From contig CANSAF010000008.1 in NCBI GenBank assembly GCA_947644645.1, forward strand, positions 19,412 through 83,411: a stretch of 64,000 bases of DNA, read 5' to 3'. Positions 1,986 to 45,309 of this stretch are shown here, piece by piece (within the stretch, counting starts at the first letter, position 1; the number at the start of each line of letters is the position of its first letter). A program made the position numbers and the translations under genes. A model generated the notes under the pieces. It saw only the letters and a program-made list of their open reading frames with translations. It did no database searches and was not told the origin of the DNA. Source of the stretch: an uncultured Sporosarcina sp. GTDB lineage: Bacteria > Bacillota > Bacilli > Bacillales_A > Planococcaceae.

Positions 1986-3653
1986 TTAGACCTCCAGAAT
2001 GACTGGAAGAATCATTGGTTTACGCTCTGTTTTATCGAATAAATAAGGACCTAGTACATCGATTGCTTCTGTTTTTAAAGTAGAAGGTTGGATTGTTGAC
2101 TTTGCCATCTTTTGGTGTAAATGTTTCGTTAGCATTTTTTGTGCTTCTTGAATCATTTCACCAGACTCACGCATATAAACGAAACCACGTGAAATGATAT
2201 CTGGTCCGGATACGATGCGATTTTTCTTCTTGTCGATTGTTGCAACAACAATCACAAGCCCATCTTCTGAAAGCATTTTACGATCACGTAAAACGACATT
2301 TCCGATATCTCCAATACCGCTACCGTCAATATACACATCACCTGAAGGAATACGACCTGCTTTTCTTGCGCTATTTTCAGTTAATGCAAGAACGTCTCCG
2401 TTGCCTAAAACAAATGTATTTTCTTCTGGTACATCACAACTTACAGCTAGTTCCGTATGCATTTTCATCATGCGATATTCGCCGTGAATAGGCATGAAAT
2501 ACTTAGGTTTCATGAGTCGAAGCATGAGTTTTTGTTCTTCTTGAGAACCATGCCCAGACGTATGAATATTGTCTAAAGATCCGTGTAAAACTTCAGCACC
2601 TGCGCGGAACAAAGCGTTAATTGTTTTATTAATGCTTAATGTGTTTCCTGGAATTGGTGAAGATGAGAAAATCACTGTATCACCAGGATGGATTTGAACT
2701 TGACGATGTGTCCCGTTCGCAATACGCGAAAGAGCTGCCATCGGTTCACCTTGACTTCCTGTACAAAGAATCATGACCTCACTTGCTTGTAAACTATTTA
2801 AAGCGCGTGTATCGACAAATAATTCTTGAGGCGCATCGATGTAGCCAAGTTCTCGACCAATTCGAATCGCATTATCCATACTGCGTCCGAAAACGGCGAT
2901 TTTACGATTATGCGTTTTCGCTGCGTCAATTACTTGTTGCAGTCGGTGAATATTAGACGCAAATGTTGCGAAAATAATTCGTCCATCTACTTTTCTGAAA
3001 ATCTCATTTAAACTATCGCCAACTTTACGTTCTGAAAGCGTGAAATTCGGGACTTCAGCATTCGTACTATCTGATAATAAACAAAGTACACCTTCGCCAC
3101 CAATTTTCGCCATTTTCGTTAAGTTAGCAGGTTCACCAACCGGTGTGAAGTCGAATTTGAAGTCACCTGTATGCACGATATTTCCAGAAGGTGTTTTAAC
3201 AACGACACCGAAAGCATCTGGAATACTATGTGCTGTTTTATAAAACGTAACAGATGTTTTTCTAAATTTAATGACATCATCTTCATCAATTGGAATCATT
3301 TTCGTTGAACGTAATAGACCATGTTCTTCCAATTTATTGCGCAGTAATCCAAGCGCAAGTTTCCCACCATAAACAGGGATATTCACTTTGCGAAGTAAGT
3401 AAGGAATTCCGCCGATATGATCTTCATGACCATGGGTGATGAAAAGTCCTTTAATCTTATCTTCATTTCTTTCTAAATAAGAATAATCAGGAATGACATA
3501 ATCGATTCCTAATAAATCATCTTCTGGAAATTTAATACCCGCGTCAATTAAAATGATTTCATCTTGAAATTGAACTGCATACGTATTTTTTCCGATTTCG
3601 CCTAGTCCGCCTAGAGCGAAAACGCCAGTTTCATTGTTTTTGATAACATTCAT
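1986..3653 (-). CDS. rnjA: Ribonuclease J1
   Basis: 555 residues, the usual RNase J length. A metallo-beta-lactamase fold carries the zinc motif HGHEDH at 74-79, followed by a beta-CASP region and a C-terminal domain. RNase J1 is the main 5'-3' exoribonuclease and endonuclease of Bacillales mRNA decay and 16S maturation. The gene follows rpoY by 3 nt, the conserved ykzG-ykqC pair, so epsilon and RNase J1 are co-transcribed. Its ribosome binding site is poor (CAGG), suggesting translational coupling to rpoY. Confidence 0.96.
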
Positions 3654-3656
3654 GTT

Positions 3657-3866
3657 TTAAACCTGCACAAGCTCGAAATGTTCAGAAGCTTGTTCATGTT
3701 CAAGATGTTTGCCCTCTAATAATTGGATGTATTCGATATTCAAATTACGCCCTTTTAAAAATTGGCGAACAGCTCGCTCAGATTCTGCTTCAATGAACAT
3801 GCTTTTTGTATTTTCGCGGACTGGTACTTCTAGCACGTTTTCTTGGTAATAAACTTTGTAAATCAT
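3657..3866 (-). CDS. rpoY: RNA polymerase epsilon subunit
   Basis: 69 residues beginning MIYKVYYQENVLEVPVRE, matching YkzG/RpoY, a small DUF1447 protein that binds RNA polymerase. The longer frame to 3893 is rejected: AAAGGAGAG sits 6 nt before the ATG at 3866, and the family starts with MIYKV. It is the first gene of the rpoY-rnjA operon and has its own promoter at 3913-3941. Confidence 0.93.
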   Translation of the reverse strand: MIYKVYYQENVLEVPVRENTKSMFIEAESERAVRQFLKGRNLNIEYIQLLEGKHLEHEQASEHFELVQV

Positions 3867-3912
3867 TTTATGCTCTCCTTTTTTTACGTTCATTTTTAAT
3901 CATGCTCCATTC

Positions 3913-3941
3913 ATTATATATTATCATGTCATATCGGTAAA
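3913..3941 (-). promoter_or_regulatory. SigA-type promoter of rpoY-rnjA
   Basis: On the minus strand TTTACC (3936-3941), a 17-nt spacer and TATAAT (3913-3918) precede rpoY by about 45 nt. It lies just downstream of the micropeptide terminator, so the two units are transcribed separately. Confidence 0.75.
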
Positions 3942-3975
3942 ATAAAGAAAAGCCGACCAAATATTATGGCCGGCT
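3940..3975 (-). terminator. Intrinsic terminator of the micropeptide gene
   Basis: On the minus strand the AGCCGGCC...GGTCGGCT stem (3951-3975) is followed by a T-rich tail (TTTTCTTTATTTT). It lies 8 nt after the micropeptide stop and isolates it from rpoY. Confidence 0.8.
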
Positions 3976-3982
3976 GAGAAAG

Positions 3983-4054
3983 TCATGCAATTTTCTTTTT
4001 TCCGAGGATGCCATTCAGTCGTTTCAACACTTTGCGTTTGAGACGTTTATACAT
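3983..4054 (-). CDS. 23-residue highly cationic micropeptide
   Basis: A short frame (MYKRLKRKVLKR then LNGILGKKKIA) with 10 Lys/Arg and no acidic residues. Hydrophobic residues at 2, 5, 9, 13, 16/17 suggest an amphipathic helix. AAGGAGGGA (4061-4069) is an excellent ribosome binding site. A perfect TTGACA-17-TATAAT promoter lies at 4076-4104 and a terminator at 3940-3975, giving a monocistronic transcript of roughly 120 nt between def and rpoY. I do not recognise the family. Options are a membrane- or nucleic-acid-binding peptide, a toxin-like peptide, or a small RNA with an incidental frame. The full expression set argues that it is a real gene. Confidence 0.7.
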   Translation of the reverse strand: MYKRLKRKVLKRLNGILGKKKIA

Positions 4055-4075
4055 GGCCTATCCCTCCTTAAGAAA

Positions 4076-4104
4076 ATTATACCGTATTCAGACTCTTTTG
4101 TCAA
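4076..4104 (-). promoter_or_regulatory. Perfect consensus SigA promoter of the micropeptide gene
   Basis: On the minus strand TTGACA (4099-4104), a 17-nt spacer, then TATAAT (4076-4081). The predicted start near 4069 places the Shine-Dalgarno sequence at the very 5' end of the RNA, with only about 15 nt of leader before the ATG. Confidence 0.88.
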
Positions 4105-4121
4105 GTTGGTGGTTCGCGCGG

Positions 4122-4679
4122 TTATGCTCTTTCAAAAGGAACTGCATCCGGAATTGCTTGGAATGGACTGTCTTTTGAAATATGGTCGAAAAACATGATG
4201 CCATTTAAATGATCTAATTCATGTTGGAATGCGATTGCTGGAAGTCCTTTTAAACGTTTTTTAAATTCATTGCCATCTAAATCATAGGCTTTTACAGTAA
4301 TGCGCGCGTAGCGTGGGACATATCCTTCAATATTTCGGTCGACAGATAGACAACCTTCGCCTGAAGTTAAATAAGTTTTTTCCACAGAATGACTGACGAT
4401 TTTAGGGTTAACTGCGATAAAACTAATTGTTTTTCCGTTATCTTCTGGAATGTGTAGCGCAAACATTTGAACAGAAGCATTGACCTGTGGTGCAGCTAAT
4501 CCGATTCCAGGACGTAAACTATATTTTTCGGCAAGATCGGGTTCTTGGCTATTTTTAACATACTCCAGTAAATCTTCGCCTAATTTTCGCTCTTCATTTG
4601 AAAGTGGAAATGAGACTGGTTCTGCTTTTTTTCGTAGCGCTGGATGACCTTCGCGCACAATATCTTTCATTAAAATCAT
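4122..4679 (-). CDS. def: Peptide deformylase
   Basis: 185 residues. The three deformylase motifs are present: GIGLAAPQ (58-65), EGCLS with metal ligand C110, and QHELDH with H153 and H157. It removes the formyl group from nascent protein N-termini. Length and wording fit the longer type 2 Gram-positive enzymes (B. subtilis DefB/YkrB). The start at 4679 is chosen because GAAAGGATG lies at suitable distance and the family begins near MILMKDIVREGHP; a frame extending to 4697 is unlikely. It diverges from ykyA. Confidence 0.95.
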   Translation of the reverse strand: MILMKDIVREGHPALRKKAEPVSFPLSNEERKLGEDLLEYVKNSQEPDLAEKYSLRPGIGLAAPQVNASVQMFALHIPEDNGKTISFIAVNPKIVSHSVEKTYLTSGEGCLSVDRNIEGYVPRYARITVKAYDLDGNEFKKRLKGLPAIAFQHELDHLNGIMFFDHISKDSPFQAIPDAVPFERA

Positions 4680-4759
4680 TGTGAAACATCCTTTCAATCT
4701 TCATATGTAGTATAAGTATAATCAAAGGTAGCATACGGTGAAAGGATTTTCTCTTCGGC

Positions 4760-4788
4760 TTGAACGGATTTTCAATAACAATTATAAT
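4760..4788 (+). promoter_or_regulatory. SigA-type promoter of ykyA
   Basis: TTGAAC (4760-4765), a 17-nt spacer and TATAAT (4783-4788), 24 nt before the ykyA start codon. Confidence 0.7.
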
Positions 4789-4811
4789 TCGAGGTAATTG
4801 GAGGGGCTTGT

Positions 4812-5447
4812 ATGAGAAAAAAATTATTGGCAATTGCAGCGCTTAGTATAGCACTACTTACGGGTTGTTCAGACAATCAAACAATTGAAGATAAAGTCAT
4901 TTCGGTACTTGGAGAAATGGCAGAGATTGAAAAGGATTTTGAAACGTTTCAAGGTGAATTAACGGAAATTGAGCAAACTGAACAACAAATCTTTTTGGAA
5001 ACGATGACACTCACGCAAAATCAAACAACTAAAATTAAAGAAAATGTTGAGAAATTAACAGAAACATTAGAAGAACGTGTACTCAAAATAGATGCAGAAG
5101 CAGAGACGATGCAAAAAGCCAATGCATTGGTTGCAGATTTAAGTAAATTAGAAGAGGCAACGGAGTTTGAAAAGGAAGCCGTTGAAAAAGTGAAAGAAGC
5201 CACGAACCATCGTTATCAACTACATCATGTTTTTGTAGAAAACTATGCGCAATTTACAAATCTTCAACGTATATTATATGAAATGATTGTAGAAGTACCG
5301 ATAGATGCAGCGAAATTGGATGAACAAGTCGAAGCGGTAAACAAGCAAAATCAATTAGTGATCCAGGCGGTAAAAGATTTTAATGAAGCGACGATTGTGT
5401 TAAATGAAACGAGAGATGAAGTGTTTACACAATTAAAAAAGGAATAA
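4812..5447 (+). CDS. ykyA: YkyA-family cell-wall-associated lipoprotein
   Basis: 211 residues. A lipoprotein signal peptide ends in the lipobox LTGC with Cys19 as acylation site; the rest is an extended, Glu/Lys-rich, probably coiled-coil helix bundle (EIEKDFETFQGELTEIEQTE and similar). It matches the YkyA family (putative cell-wall binding lipoprotein), which precedes pdhA in B. subtilis too. It should be anchored to the outer face of the membrane. Molecular function is unknown. GGAGGGG precedes the ATG. Own promoter and terminator make it a separate unit from pdh. Confidence 0.85.
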   Translation: MRKKLLAIAALSIALLTGCSDNQTIEDKVISVLGEMAEIEKDFETFQGELTEIEQTEQQIFLETMTLTQNQTTKIKENVEKLTETLEERVLKIDAEAETMQKANALVADLSKLEEATEFEKEAVEKVKEATNHRYQLHHVFVENYAQFTNLQRILYEMIVEVPIDAAKLDEQVEAVNKQNQLVIQAVKDFNEATIVLNETRDEVFTQLKKE

Positions 5448-5467
5448 TGGGAATAAAATTAAGGAAA

Positions 5468-5506
5468 ACGGGTACGTTATTAAAGGCGTGCTCGTTTTTA
5501 TTTTTC
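5468..5506 (+). terminator. Intrinsic terminator of ykyA
   Basis: A 9-bp stem ACGGGTACG/CGTGCTCGT including G-U pairs, followed by TTTTTATTTTT. Confidence 0.7.
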
Positions 5507-5539
5507 AACATTAATTTACTAAAATATGATTGTAGTATA

Positions 5540-5569
5540 TTTACTAGAATGATTAAATTCTATTATAAT
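5540..5569 (+). promoter_or_regulatory. Upstream pdh promoter (P1)
   Basis: TTTACT (5540-5545), an 18-nt spacer and TATAAT (5564-5569). It would give a leader of about 185 nt before pdhA that includes the short frame at 5645 and the second promoter. Confidence 0.6.
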
Positions 5570-5644
5570 ACAGAGTGGTTATTGTGGTAGTACAGTTTTG
5601 GGGGTTAGATAAATTCAAAGCTTTTTAAAGGAGGAGTAGAACTT

Positions 5645-5677
5645 ATGAGAACGCAACGTTTGACCTTTATAAGTTAG
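5645..5677 (+). CDS. Candidate 10-residue leader peptide upstream of pdhA
   Basis: AAAGGAGGAG (about 5629-5638), a near-perfect ribosome binding site, precedes ATG with MRTQRLTFIS and a stop. No other gene would use this site. The frame overlaps the -35 box of the second pdh promoter. It may be a leader peptide coupling translation to pdh expression, or a decayed gene start. No codon run points to a specific amino acid. Confidence 0.4.
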   Translation: MRTQRLTFIS

Positions 5678-5688
5678 TTCAGTATACT
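5660..5688 (+). promoter_or_regulatory. Proximal pdh promoter (P2)
   Basis: TTGACC (5660-5665), a 17-nt spacer and TATACT (5683-5688), about 70 nt before pdhA. Together with P1 this suggests dual transcription of pdhABCD. Confidence 0.65.
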
Positions 5689-5733
5689 TAGAAATGAATG
5701 GATTGTACTAATCATTACGAGAGTGATTCATAA

Positions 5734-6876
<1,143 letters not shown>

Positions 6877-7987: not shown

Positions 7988-8030
7988 TATTTTCAAATGA
8001 GCCGATAGAAAAAACAGGAGGGTGAATCAC

Positions 8031-9659
8031 GTGGCATATGTATTCCGTTTGCCGGATATCGGAGAAGGTATCCATGAAGGTGAAGTAGTAAAGTGGCTTG
8101 TAGAAGAAGGCCAAAAAATTGAAGAAGATGACGTGCTTTGTGAAATTCAAAATGATAAAGCGGTTGTTGAAATTCCATCACCAGTTGCAGGAACAGTTGA
8201 GAAGCTACTTGTAGCAGAAGGAACTGTATCTGTTGTCGGCGATCCATTAATCCAAATCGATGCGCCAGGCTATGAAGATATGTACGAAGAAGCACCACAA
8301 GCTGAAGAAACAGCAGAAGTTGCGCAAGACGCAGCACCGGCACAAGCAGCAACACAAGGTTCATATGTATTCCGTCTACCAGATATTGGAGAAGGAATTC
8401 ACGAAGGTGAAGTTGTGAAATGGCTTGTAGAAGAAGGTCAGAAAATCGCTGAAGACGATGTACTTTGCGAAATTCAAAACGATAAAGCAGTCGTTGAAAT
8501 TCCATCACCAGTTGCAGGAACAGTTGAGAAGCTACTTGTAGCGGAAGGAACTGTATCTGTAGTAGGTGACCCGTTAATTCAAATCGATGCACCAGGTTAT
8601 GAGCATCTATATGAAGCAGGTACTGCTGAAACTGAATCACAAGTTCAAGCAACTGCTGAAGCAGGTCAAGCGATCAATAAAGAAACAGCGAAAAAAGATA
8701 CAGAAGTAGACGTAAATCGTCGTATTATTGCGATGCCTTCAGTTCGTAAGTTTGCACGCGAAAATGATGTAGATATCCGTCAAGTTGCAGGTTCTGGAAA
8801 AAATGGACGTGTATTAAAAGAAGATATCGAAACATTTATGAGTGGCGGTCAAGCAACTGCTGAAGCACCAGCACAACAGTCGGCAGAAAAAGCTGCACCA
8901 GCACAATCAACAGCTAAACAAACGGCTTCAAAACAACCAGTATCGCTTGAAGGAGACTTCCCGGAAACACGTGAGAAAATCTCTAGCATTCGAAAAGTTA
9001 TTGCAAAAGCGATGGTAAACTCGAAACATACGGCGCCACATGTTACATTATTAGATGAGGTAGATGTTACTGAACTTGTTGCACACCGTAAGAAGTTCAA
9101 AGACATTGCGGCAGAGCAAGATATTAAGCTTACGTACTTACCATATATTGTTAAGGCACTTGTAAGCACTTTGCGTAAATTCCCAGCGCTGAATACATCT
9201 TATGATGATGCAACTGAGGAAGTTATTCAAAAACATTATTTCAACATCGGAATCGCAGCAGATACGGACCGCGGACTTCTCGTACCTGTCGTAAAACATG
9301 CTGATCGTAAATCGATCTTCGCGATTTCATCGGAAATTAGCGAACTTGCAGTGAAGGCTCGTGATGGTAAGTTGTCAGTAGCTGAAATGAGTGGTGCATC
9401 ATGCTCAATTACAAATATCGGTTCTGCTGGTGGACAATGGTTTACACCAATTATTAACCACCCAGAAGTTGCAATTTTAGGTGTCGGCCGTATCGCTGAA
9501 AAACCAATTGTAAAAGATGGAGAAATTGTTGCAGCACCAATGCTTGCATTATCACTTGTTTTCGACCACAGAATGTTAGATGGTGCTACAGCACAACACG
9601 CACTGAACCACATTAAGAGATTGCTAAGTAATCCAGAACTTTTATTAATGGAGGCGTAA
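8031..9659 (+). CDS. pdhC: Pyruvate dehydrogenase E2 (dihydrolipoyl acetyltransferase), two lipoyl domains
   Basis: 542 residues. Two nearly identical lipoyl domains (about 2-81 and 111-190, lipoyl Lys43 and Lys152 in NDKAVVEI) are joined by an Ala/Glu-rich linker. A peripheral-subunit-binding domain follows ([17 protein letters not shown]), then an Ala/Gln linker and the catalytic domain with FDHRMLDG near the C-terminus. B. subtilis E2 has one lipoyl domain, so this is a duplication. The start is GTG 8031 ([13 protein letters not shown]) with AGGAGGG at 8015-8021; an upstream GTG at 8022 abuts that site. It overlaps the pdhD ribosome binding site. Confidence 0.95.
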
Positions 9660-45114: not shown

Positions 45115-45130
45115 AATACCATTCTAAACA

Positions 45131-45205
45131 TACTCACTCATATAATCGCGGGAATATGGCCCGACAGTTTCTACCGGTTCGCCTTAAACGAATTGACTAT
45201 GAGTA
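45131..45205 (+). promoter_or_regulatory. Purine (guanine-type) riboswitch aptamer
   Basis: The purine aptamer pattern is clear: TATAATCGCGGGAATATGGC, then GTTTCTACCGG and TTGACTATGAGTA, closed by a TACTCA/TGAGTA P1 stem. The C in GACTATG is the specificity base of guanine/xanthine-type aptamers (adenine aptamers have T). Located upstream of xpt-pbuX as in B. subtilis. Confidence 0.95.
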
Positions 45206-45309
45206 GCAATGGAAGAAGATTTTAGTTTGGCTGAGTTCAGCAGAAACTCCCATTTTTTGGAATGGGCATATGATGATATGAAAATCGATCTTTCTCTTTT
45301 TGGATTTTT

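Follow-up and report, generated by a model that had tools for sequence, protein, structure and literature searches.

A conserved 23-codon gene upstream of rpoY in Sporosarcina and other Bacillales, encoding a predicted cationic micropeptide

Between def and rpoY of an uncultured Sporosarcina sp. (Planococcaceae; assembly GCA_947644645.1, contig CANSAF010000008.1, positions 19,412–83,411 of the forward strand), a promoter, a Shine-Dalgarno (SD) sequence, an ATG, 23 codons, a stop codon and a terminator are packed into about 160 nt. The whole stretch of 64,000 nt that was analysed is called the window. The locus raises two questions: is so short a frame a gene, and what might its product do beside genes for RNA polymerase and RNase J1? 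A preliminary description, made from the letters alone, had proposed a cationic micropeptide, possibly toxin-like, or a dual-function RNA. On comparison with related genomes, the frame is a real, conserved protein-coding gene under purifying selection. The favoured reading, with a probability of roughly 0.4, is that of a chromosomal, vertically kept Bacillales micropeptide that would form a cationic amphipathic helix and serve the RNA machinery whose genes adjoin it as an accessory ligand; this function we infer from conservation, gene order and peptide composition.

Conservation of the reading frame

The window peptide, MYKRLKRKVLKRLNGILGKKKIA, contains ten Lys or Arg and no Asp or Glu residues. 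Used as the query, it was matched in 37/37 genomes of the genus (E<1e-6) and in 0/24 distant genomes of the class; four extra matches of this query were all weak, above E 0.3. In the family, 253/261 genomes were matched at E≤1. A profile of 21 rows (A1) gave 254/261, including genome G209 at 0.89, which was judged not credible. In a class sample, 88/398 genomes were matched at E≤0.1 and 66/398 at E≤1e-3 (39 genomes from the family, 27 from outside it). All 27 non-family genomes at E≤1e-3 were fetched; the peptide open reading frame (ORF) lies upstream of rpoY, on the same strand, in 27/27. The ORF has exactly 23 residues, of the type MLKKLKKKLLKQWKDLLRKKSIA, in 26/27, and is longer in G604 (locus L172). 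Weak second matches in G133 and G135 (L181, L182) were discarded as chance, because they show no synteny with rpoY.

A set of 80 loci was fetched by RpoY alone, irrespective of the peptide (best 80 of 370). A 23-residue ORF is present 104–499 nt before rpoY in 77/80; a 25-residue form is present in L108 and L111, and none in L114 (Savagea). From all sources, 222 loci with a 23-codon ORF above the threshold were reduced to 184 distinct loci (80 nt upstream, coding sequence, 80 nt downstream) and 79 distinct peptides, a set that was partly fetched by the peptide itself and in which the 23-codon length is given by construction. No 23-codon ORF was obtained from 42 loci (L108, L111, L114, longer forms of families f41 and f52, L181/L182 and rpoY loci of other families). 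The upstream regions of the RpoY-positive genomes G290 and G612 were left out of the inspection. All loci are related and were counted without a tree, so that the counts given here and below are not counts of independent events.

The start codon is ATG in 184/184 loci. Over the 79 distinct peptides the most conserved residues are K20 (79/79), L5 (78/79), A23 (77/79) and I22 (76/79); the C-terminal motif K-x-I-A is present in 74/79. Entropy at the three codon positions is 0.74, 0.58 and 1.47 (160 distinct coding sequences). Pooled dN/dS (mean dN to mean dS) is about 0.25, computed over the 857 pairs, out of 4000 sampled, that have pS<0.6. The comparison of codon with nucleotide conservation, which the preliminary description had named as a check, thus favours the frame, and by the counts above the frame recurs at the same site in hundreds of genomes, more than chance would give.

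The peptide is also matched in 39/41 genomes of the genus Bacillus (the genus of G410). In one of these, the single-contig 4.2-Mb genome G622 (locus L245), RpoY is identical in 69/69 positions to the YkzG chain of B. subtilis in PDB 6wvk; the peptide is MLRKLRKKLRRQWNGMLRKKAIA, and rpoY starts 190 nt past its ATG. L245 appears to be of B. subtilis type, a label drawn from the RpoY identity. The supposed lack of a B. subtilis counterpart is therefore wrong. In the accessible parts of the sources, ykzG is BSU14540 (PMC3814617) and ykrA is BSU14550 (PMC8216469); the two tags are consecutive tens. Loci of the genus Bacillus carry a different conserved leader, TCTAACATACGG..TTAAGGAGAGATTTGG, ahead of rpoY.

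Record NZ_JADHDX010000001.1 (L048), titled Arthrobacter beigongshangensis, bears an rpoY/peptide locus of Sporosarcina type; the title looks taxonomically wrong.

Transcription and translation signals

Promoter, SD, 23-codon frame and terminator are all present, on the window's minus strand, where they had been described (Table 1). The promoter, TTGACA-17-TATAAT, ranks top of the 16 consensus sites within 2500–6000. A start about 7 nt past the -10 element lands on the SD, as previously claimed; the predicted leader is roughly 14 nt long, with the SD at the 5' end of the RNA.

Table 1. Features of the micropeptide locus and of the adjoining rpoY and rnjA genes in the window
Feature	Coordinates	Strand	Remarks
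-35 element, TTGACA	4099..4104	minus	12/12 consensus together with the -10 element; 17-nt spacer
-10 element, TATAAT	4076..4081	minus	Consensus match
SD, AAGGAGGGA	4061..4069	minus	Adjoins the predicted 5' end of the RNA
23-codon gene, MYKRLKRKVLKRLNGILGKKKIA, with TGA stop	3983..4054	minus	ATG at 4054, stop 3985-3983; frame conserved
Codons 14-18, AAT GGC ATC CTC GGA	4001..4015	minus	RNA-level codon bias; predicted pairing with SD and start region, suggestive only
Intrinsic terminator hairpin	3951..3975	minus	T-rich tail reaching about 3941
Likely rpoY promoter, TTTACC-17-TATAAT	3913..3941	minus	Overlaps the terminator tail; low consensus score
rpoY, RNA polymerase epsilon subunit	3657..3866	minus	Pfam PF07288, E 5e-27
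rnjA	3653-1986	minus	ORF named by homology and position

The same signals recur across the 184 loci. A promoter of at least 10/12 consensus positions is present in 64% (2.4% of shuffles); among the 36% without one is L245, whose promoter (<10/12) lies outside the common pattern. The distance from the -10 element to the ATG is 21 or 22 nt in 120/144 loci having a promoter of at least 9/12. An SD spanning 5 nt or more, in relatives mostly AAGGAGTGAT, is present in 98% of loci (8% of shuffled ones). A terminator-like hairpin occurs at most 75 nt from the stop in 180/184 loci, compared with 4.9% of shuffles, and its stem begins 0–14 nt past the stop in 168/172 loci with a hairpin score of at least 18. 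By these signals, the peptide gene has its own SigA-type promoter, SD and terminator.

The block GGCTTTTCTTTATTTTA-N9-CATGATAATATAAAG before rpoY (window 3860–3960, minus strand) is strongly conserved whether the peptide is present or not (seen in L274–L277 and L268–L272). It is probably rpoY's own putative promoter; by consensus score this is weak (at least 9 in 91/170 loci, against 44/170 shuffled).

Genomic neighbourhood

In 170/184 loci rpoY starts 102–563 nt past the peptide stop (median 117). It was located by a simple pattern within 700 nt, by which 14/184 loci were unplaced. The other neighbour in the window is def (Pfam Pep_deformylase), on the same strand as the peptide gene. In L151, L153, L171 and L173 def is outside the fetched stretch, and the peptide is still upstream of rpoY. 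By gene order, rpoY is the neighbour that stays constant and def is not: the position beside RNA polymerase and RNase J1 genes given in the preliminary description stands, but def, between which and rpoY the gene does lie in the window, is not the conserved side.

RpoY occurs in 176/398 class genomes, and these include every one of the 66 in which the peptide is matched at E≤1e-3. None of the 222 RpoY-less class genomes reaches E≤1e-3 for the peptide; 8 have weak matches (0.0046–0.1), which were taken for chance. RpoY itself (YkzG, PF07288) is adjacent to the micropeptide and encoded on the same strand, but it is a different protein, and the peptide occurs in a subset of RpoY genomes.

Among 20 further rpoY loci, the ORF is present in four, three of family f41 and one of f52 (25 residues). 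The f41 forms (L172, L179, L180, L222, L223, L234) are 30–45 residues long, begin like MLKRLKEKLKKRW.. or similarly, and continue with ..R[VI]PTT.. or GIPTT.. instead of the K-x-I-A end. Their stop lies 19–31 nt before rpoY in 3/6 (L179, L223, L234), an operon-like arrangement; the gap is 90–197 nt in the other three.

Elsewhere in the window, a large ORF at 8022–9659 (plus strand) has two nearly identical N-terminal repeats of lipoyl type; it is presumably the pyruvate dehydrogenase E2 subunit.

Properties of the peptide and proposed function

Net charge of the homologues is +7 to +10. Hydrophobic positions 2, 5, 9, 13, 16 and 17 are conserved, with Lys or Arg elsewhere. The helical moment of the 79 homologues is 0.66 on average (0.32 shuffled; p<0.05 in 47/79) and is highest at 100 degrees among the angles tried. 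That of the window peptide is 0.55 (0.32 shuffled; p 0.088), not significant alone. The amphipathic pattern behind the helix proposed earlier shows in the mean over the homologues, but not significantly in the window peptide taken singly. The absence of acidic residues holds for the window peptide and 56/79 homologues, but 23/79 have one.

No family entry or paper was found for the peptide, so far as searched; it may already have been annotated as a hypothetical ORF. In Pfam and in NCBIfam, 0/21 members match at E≤10. The best E in a search of the PDB is 2.2, which is no match. No Rfam covariance model matches at E≤1; PHROGs and PADLOC were outside these family searches. A search of open-access literature turned up no paper that has the searched peptide strings or an ORF in the ykzG–ykrA gap; supplements and annotation databases were beyond its reach. 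At gathering scores, Rfam gives a single match in the window, a purine riboswitch aptamer (RF00167, 77 bits) at 45118–45219 (plus strand), and none at the micropeptide locus.

In the favoured reading, the compact gene just upstream of rpoY–rnjA would be translated into a 23-residue peptide. The peptide would fold as a cationic amphipathic helix, with the six conserved hydrophobic positions, Lys or Arg elsewhere, and K-x-I-A at its end. The helix would act on RNase J1, on RNA polymerase epsilon, or on the ribosome or RNA on which these work, comparable to SR1P in its tuning of RNase J1. Through codons 14–18, the transcript may also mask its own SD, so that output would be set at translation.

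Very short cationic amphipathic helices are known from SpoVM and from the membrane-targeting helices of FtsA and MinD. The micropeptide resembles these in size, charge and predicted helical pattern and differs from them by its fixed synteny with rpoY. It is probably not tied to sporulation, because Planococcus and Planomicrobium, which are not known to form spores, keep the gene.

By analogy, the closest functional precedent appears to be SR1P. In the accessible text of PMC8152036, SR1P is a small protein confined to the Bacillales that enhances the interaction of GapA with RNase J1; that of B. subtilis has 39 residues, is encoded by the dual-function small RNA SR1 and binds GapA. Small size and confinement to the Bacillales are shared with the micropeptide, as would be a short transcript of its own and a relation to RNase J1. 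The two differ in length (39 against 23 residues), and the link to RNase J1 comes here from gene position alone. Base pairing of SR1 was shown experimentally, according to the same text (PMC8152036), whereas the micropeptide transcript is predicted here from sequence.

Several points weigh against the favoured reading. In 7/261 family genomes rpoY is present without the peptide. In 16/20 further rpoY loci no such ORF with an SD was found in about the last 1 kb; the ORF-less loci belong to f9, f16, f4, f26, f34, f45, f47, f49, f46 and f40, of which f9 is Staphylococcus-like (its RpoY matches PDB 8x6f) and the others are presumably Listeria-like, Lactobacillales-like and two more. The peptide is therefore not required for RpoY as such. 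Synteny with rpoY could mean a role in cis or plain inheritance, and the same helix could bind membranes.

This last possibility amounts to a reading of its own, considered somewhat doubtful here: a micropeptide whose helix would sit at the anionic lipids on the inside of the cytoplasmic membrane and tune a membrane process, with rpoY–rnjA an incidental neighbour. The helical moment, charge and conserved hydrophobic positions of the homologues would suit it, and the segment LKRLNGILGKK, as we take it, resembles the FtsA membrane helix. It leaves unexplained the fixed position before rpoY, the limitation of strong matches to RpoY genomes and the operon-like arrangement in f41; moreover, on a helical wheel of the extended helix K20 comes out on the hydrophobic face. 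The constancy of the neighbourhood and the operon-like arrangement of 3/6 f41 loci tip the balance modestly towards a role with the RNA machinery rather than at the membrane.

Leader peptide and attenuation

A second alternative is a leader peptide acting in cis. Ribosomes that pause at Lys and Arg codons, or at the K-x-I-A end, would control the terminator and, with it, read-through into rpoY–rnjA. The ORF, its stop and the terminator are adjacent in the manner given above, the gene lies in cis to rpoY, and the C-terminus is conserved. Terminators near stop codons are, however, ordinary. The conserved putative promoter after the terminator, though weak by consensus score, speaks against dependence of rpoY on read-through, and f41 loci retain the ORF with the K-x-I-A end missing and, in 3/6, no space left for a terminator.

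Like this locus, leader peptides and upstream ORFs of Firmicutes have a short basic ORF that is followed by a terminator and then a further gene; an example, in the part of the source available, is the arginine-sensitive leader peptide reported in Staphylococcus aureus (PMC13009471). The present locus differs in that rpoY has its own putative promoter, the peptide sequence itself is selected, and the f41 forms lack the conserved end. Attenuation is considered unlikely.

RNA-level signal and loss of the frame

Two types of gene were distinguished, L13 (Leu at position 13, Planococcaceae type) and W13 (Trp at position 13). Leu17 is encoded by CTC in 92/96 L13-type genes, against 83/474 Leu codons elsewhere; in W13-type genes the corresponding figures are 22/48 and 26/160. 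Gly15 is GGC in 93/109 L13-type genes, against 31/97 at Gly14/18. Codons 15 and 17 are able to base-pair with the SD (GGAG) and with the GCC that precedes the ATG, and such a fold is predicted for the window RNA (z -2.35). Pairing of the untranslated region (UTR) with the coding sequence is stronger than after synonymous resampling (mean z -1.23 in 112 genes and -0.73 in 48 genes). Codon bias and z-scores overstate independence, because the loci are related, and the bias may in part be inherited.

With every third gene taken, the unpaired fraction of the SD is 0.40, against 0.53 resampled, in 37 L-type genes, and 0.52, against 0.53, in 17 W-type genes, that is, without difference. A column-by-column count of covariation for the SD-masking helix gave no consistent excess. 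Swapping UTRs within a type caused no loss of pairing: 1896/5000 (L13) and 1538/5000 (W13) permutations were as low. With types pooled, 24/5000 were as low (a single locus being taken for each distinct peptide). The bias in codon use is clear, and SD masking or a dual-function RNA would be consistent with CTC at Leu17; for the W type the result is mostly negative.

Eight family genomes have no peptide match; 7 of these have rpoY but no such ORF in the preceding 520 nt. Promoter and hairpin persisting without the frame, the case raised against the frame in the preliminary description, were found in 4 genomes of the 261 (L268–L271, one subclade), which keep TTTACA-17-TATAAT or TAAAAT and a terminator; L272 keeps the hairpin and the conserved rpoY-promoter block, without the frame. 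No such promoter-terminator unit was seen in L266, L267 or L114. The hairpin may persist because the rpoY-promoter block overlaps the terminator tail.

The peptide-less unit of L268–L271 lies about 90–190 nt before rpoY and would give an RNA of ~90 nt with a small ATTAGC..GCTAAT hairpin; it is either a relic or a noncoding RNA.

Genomes G271 (family), G620 and G652 (both genus Bacillus) are also peptide-less. They were not counted as losses, because they have no RpoY match and match the window rnjA only at an RNase J2-like 46–51%; their locus is either missing or unassembled, or truly lost.

A third alternative takes the transcript of ~125 nt as a dual-function RNA, which would base-pair in trans (CUC of codon 17 being anti-SD-like) or mask its own SD, and whose RNA function can outlive the peptide. 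The preference for CTC and GGC in the L13 type, the pairing above resampling and the frameless units of L268–L271 argue for it; UTRs that pair no better with their own coding sequences than with others of the same type, the lack of a consistent excess by column, the W13 accessibility and the lack of an Rfam match argue against it. For the dual-function RNA of the earlier proposal, codons 15 and 17 carry an RNA-level bias, but covariation within lineages is absent. As an account of the locus this too is of low probability; it is compatible with the favoured reading, and both can be true.

A toxin, bacteriocin or secreted peptide like the phenol-soluble modulins, suggested by the small, cationic and amphipathic product, is very unlikely, given the peptide's presence in 253/261 family genomes, a single chromosomal site in all loci examined, listed second matches within a genome that are weak (E 0.008 or worse), and no peptide match among plasmids (72,556 records) or phages (50,697), where a low-complexity filter may have masked the K/R-rich query; the same holds for a mobile element, and no antitoxin, PADLOC or signal-peptide search was made.

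Of the earlier interpretation as a whole, the conserved, independently signalled cationic gene and its amphipathic pattern remain; the missing B. subtilis counterpart does not, and a toxin-like character is unlikely.

Implications

If translated, the gene would provide the Bacillales with a very small, broadly conserved protein fixed beside two central genes of the RNA machinery. Constraints at the peptide level and at the RNA level seem to overlap within its 23 codons. The most extended form of the proposal is doubtful: a previously unrecognised Bacillales gene, also present in B. subtilis, whose 23-residue product would assist RNase J1 or RNA polymerase as an accessory factor and whose codons 14–18 would carry a second control at the RNA level, by SD masking or pairing in trans. 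Its occurrence in a genome of B. subtilis type would make the role directly testable in a standard organism.
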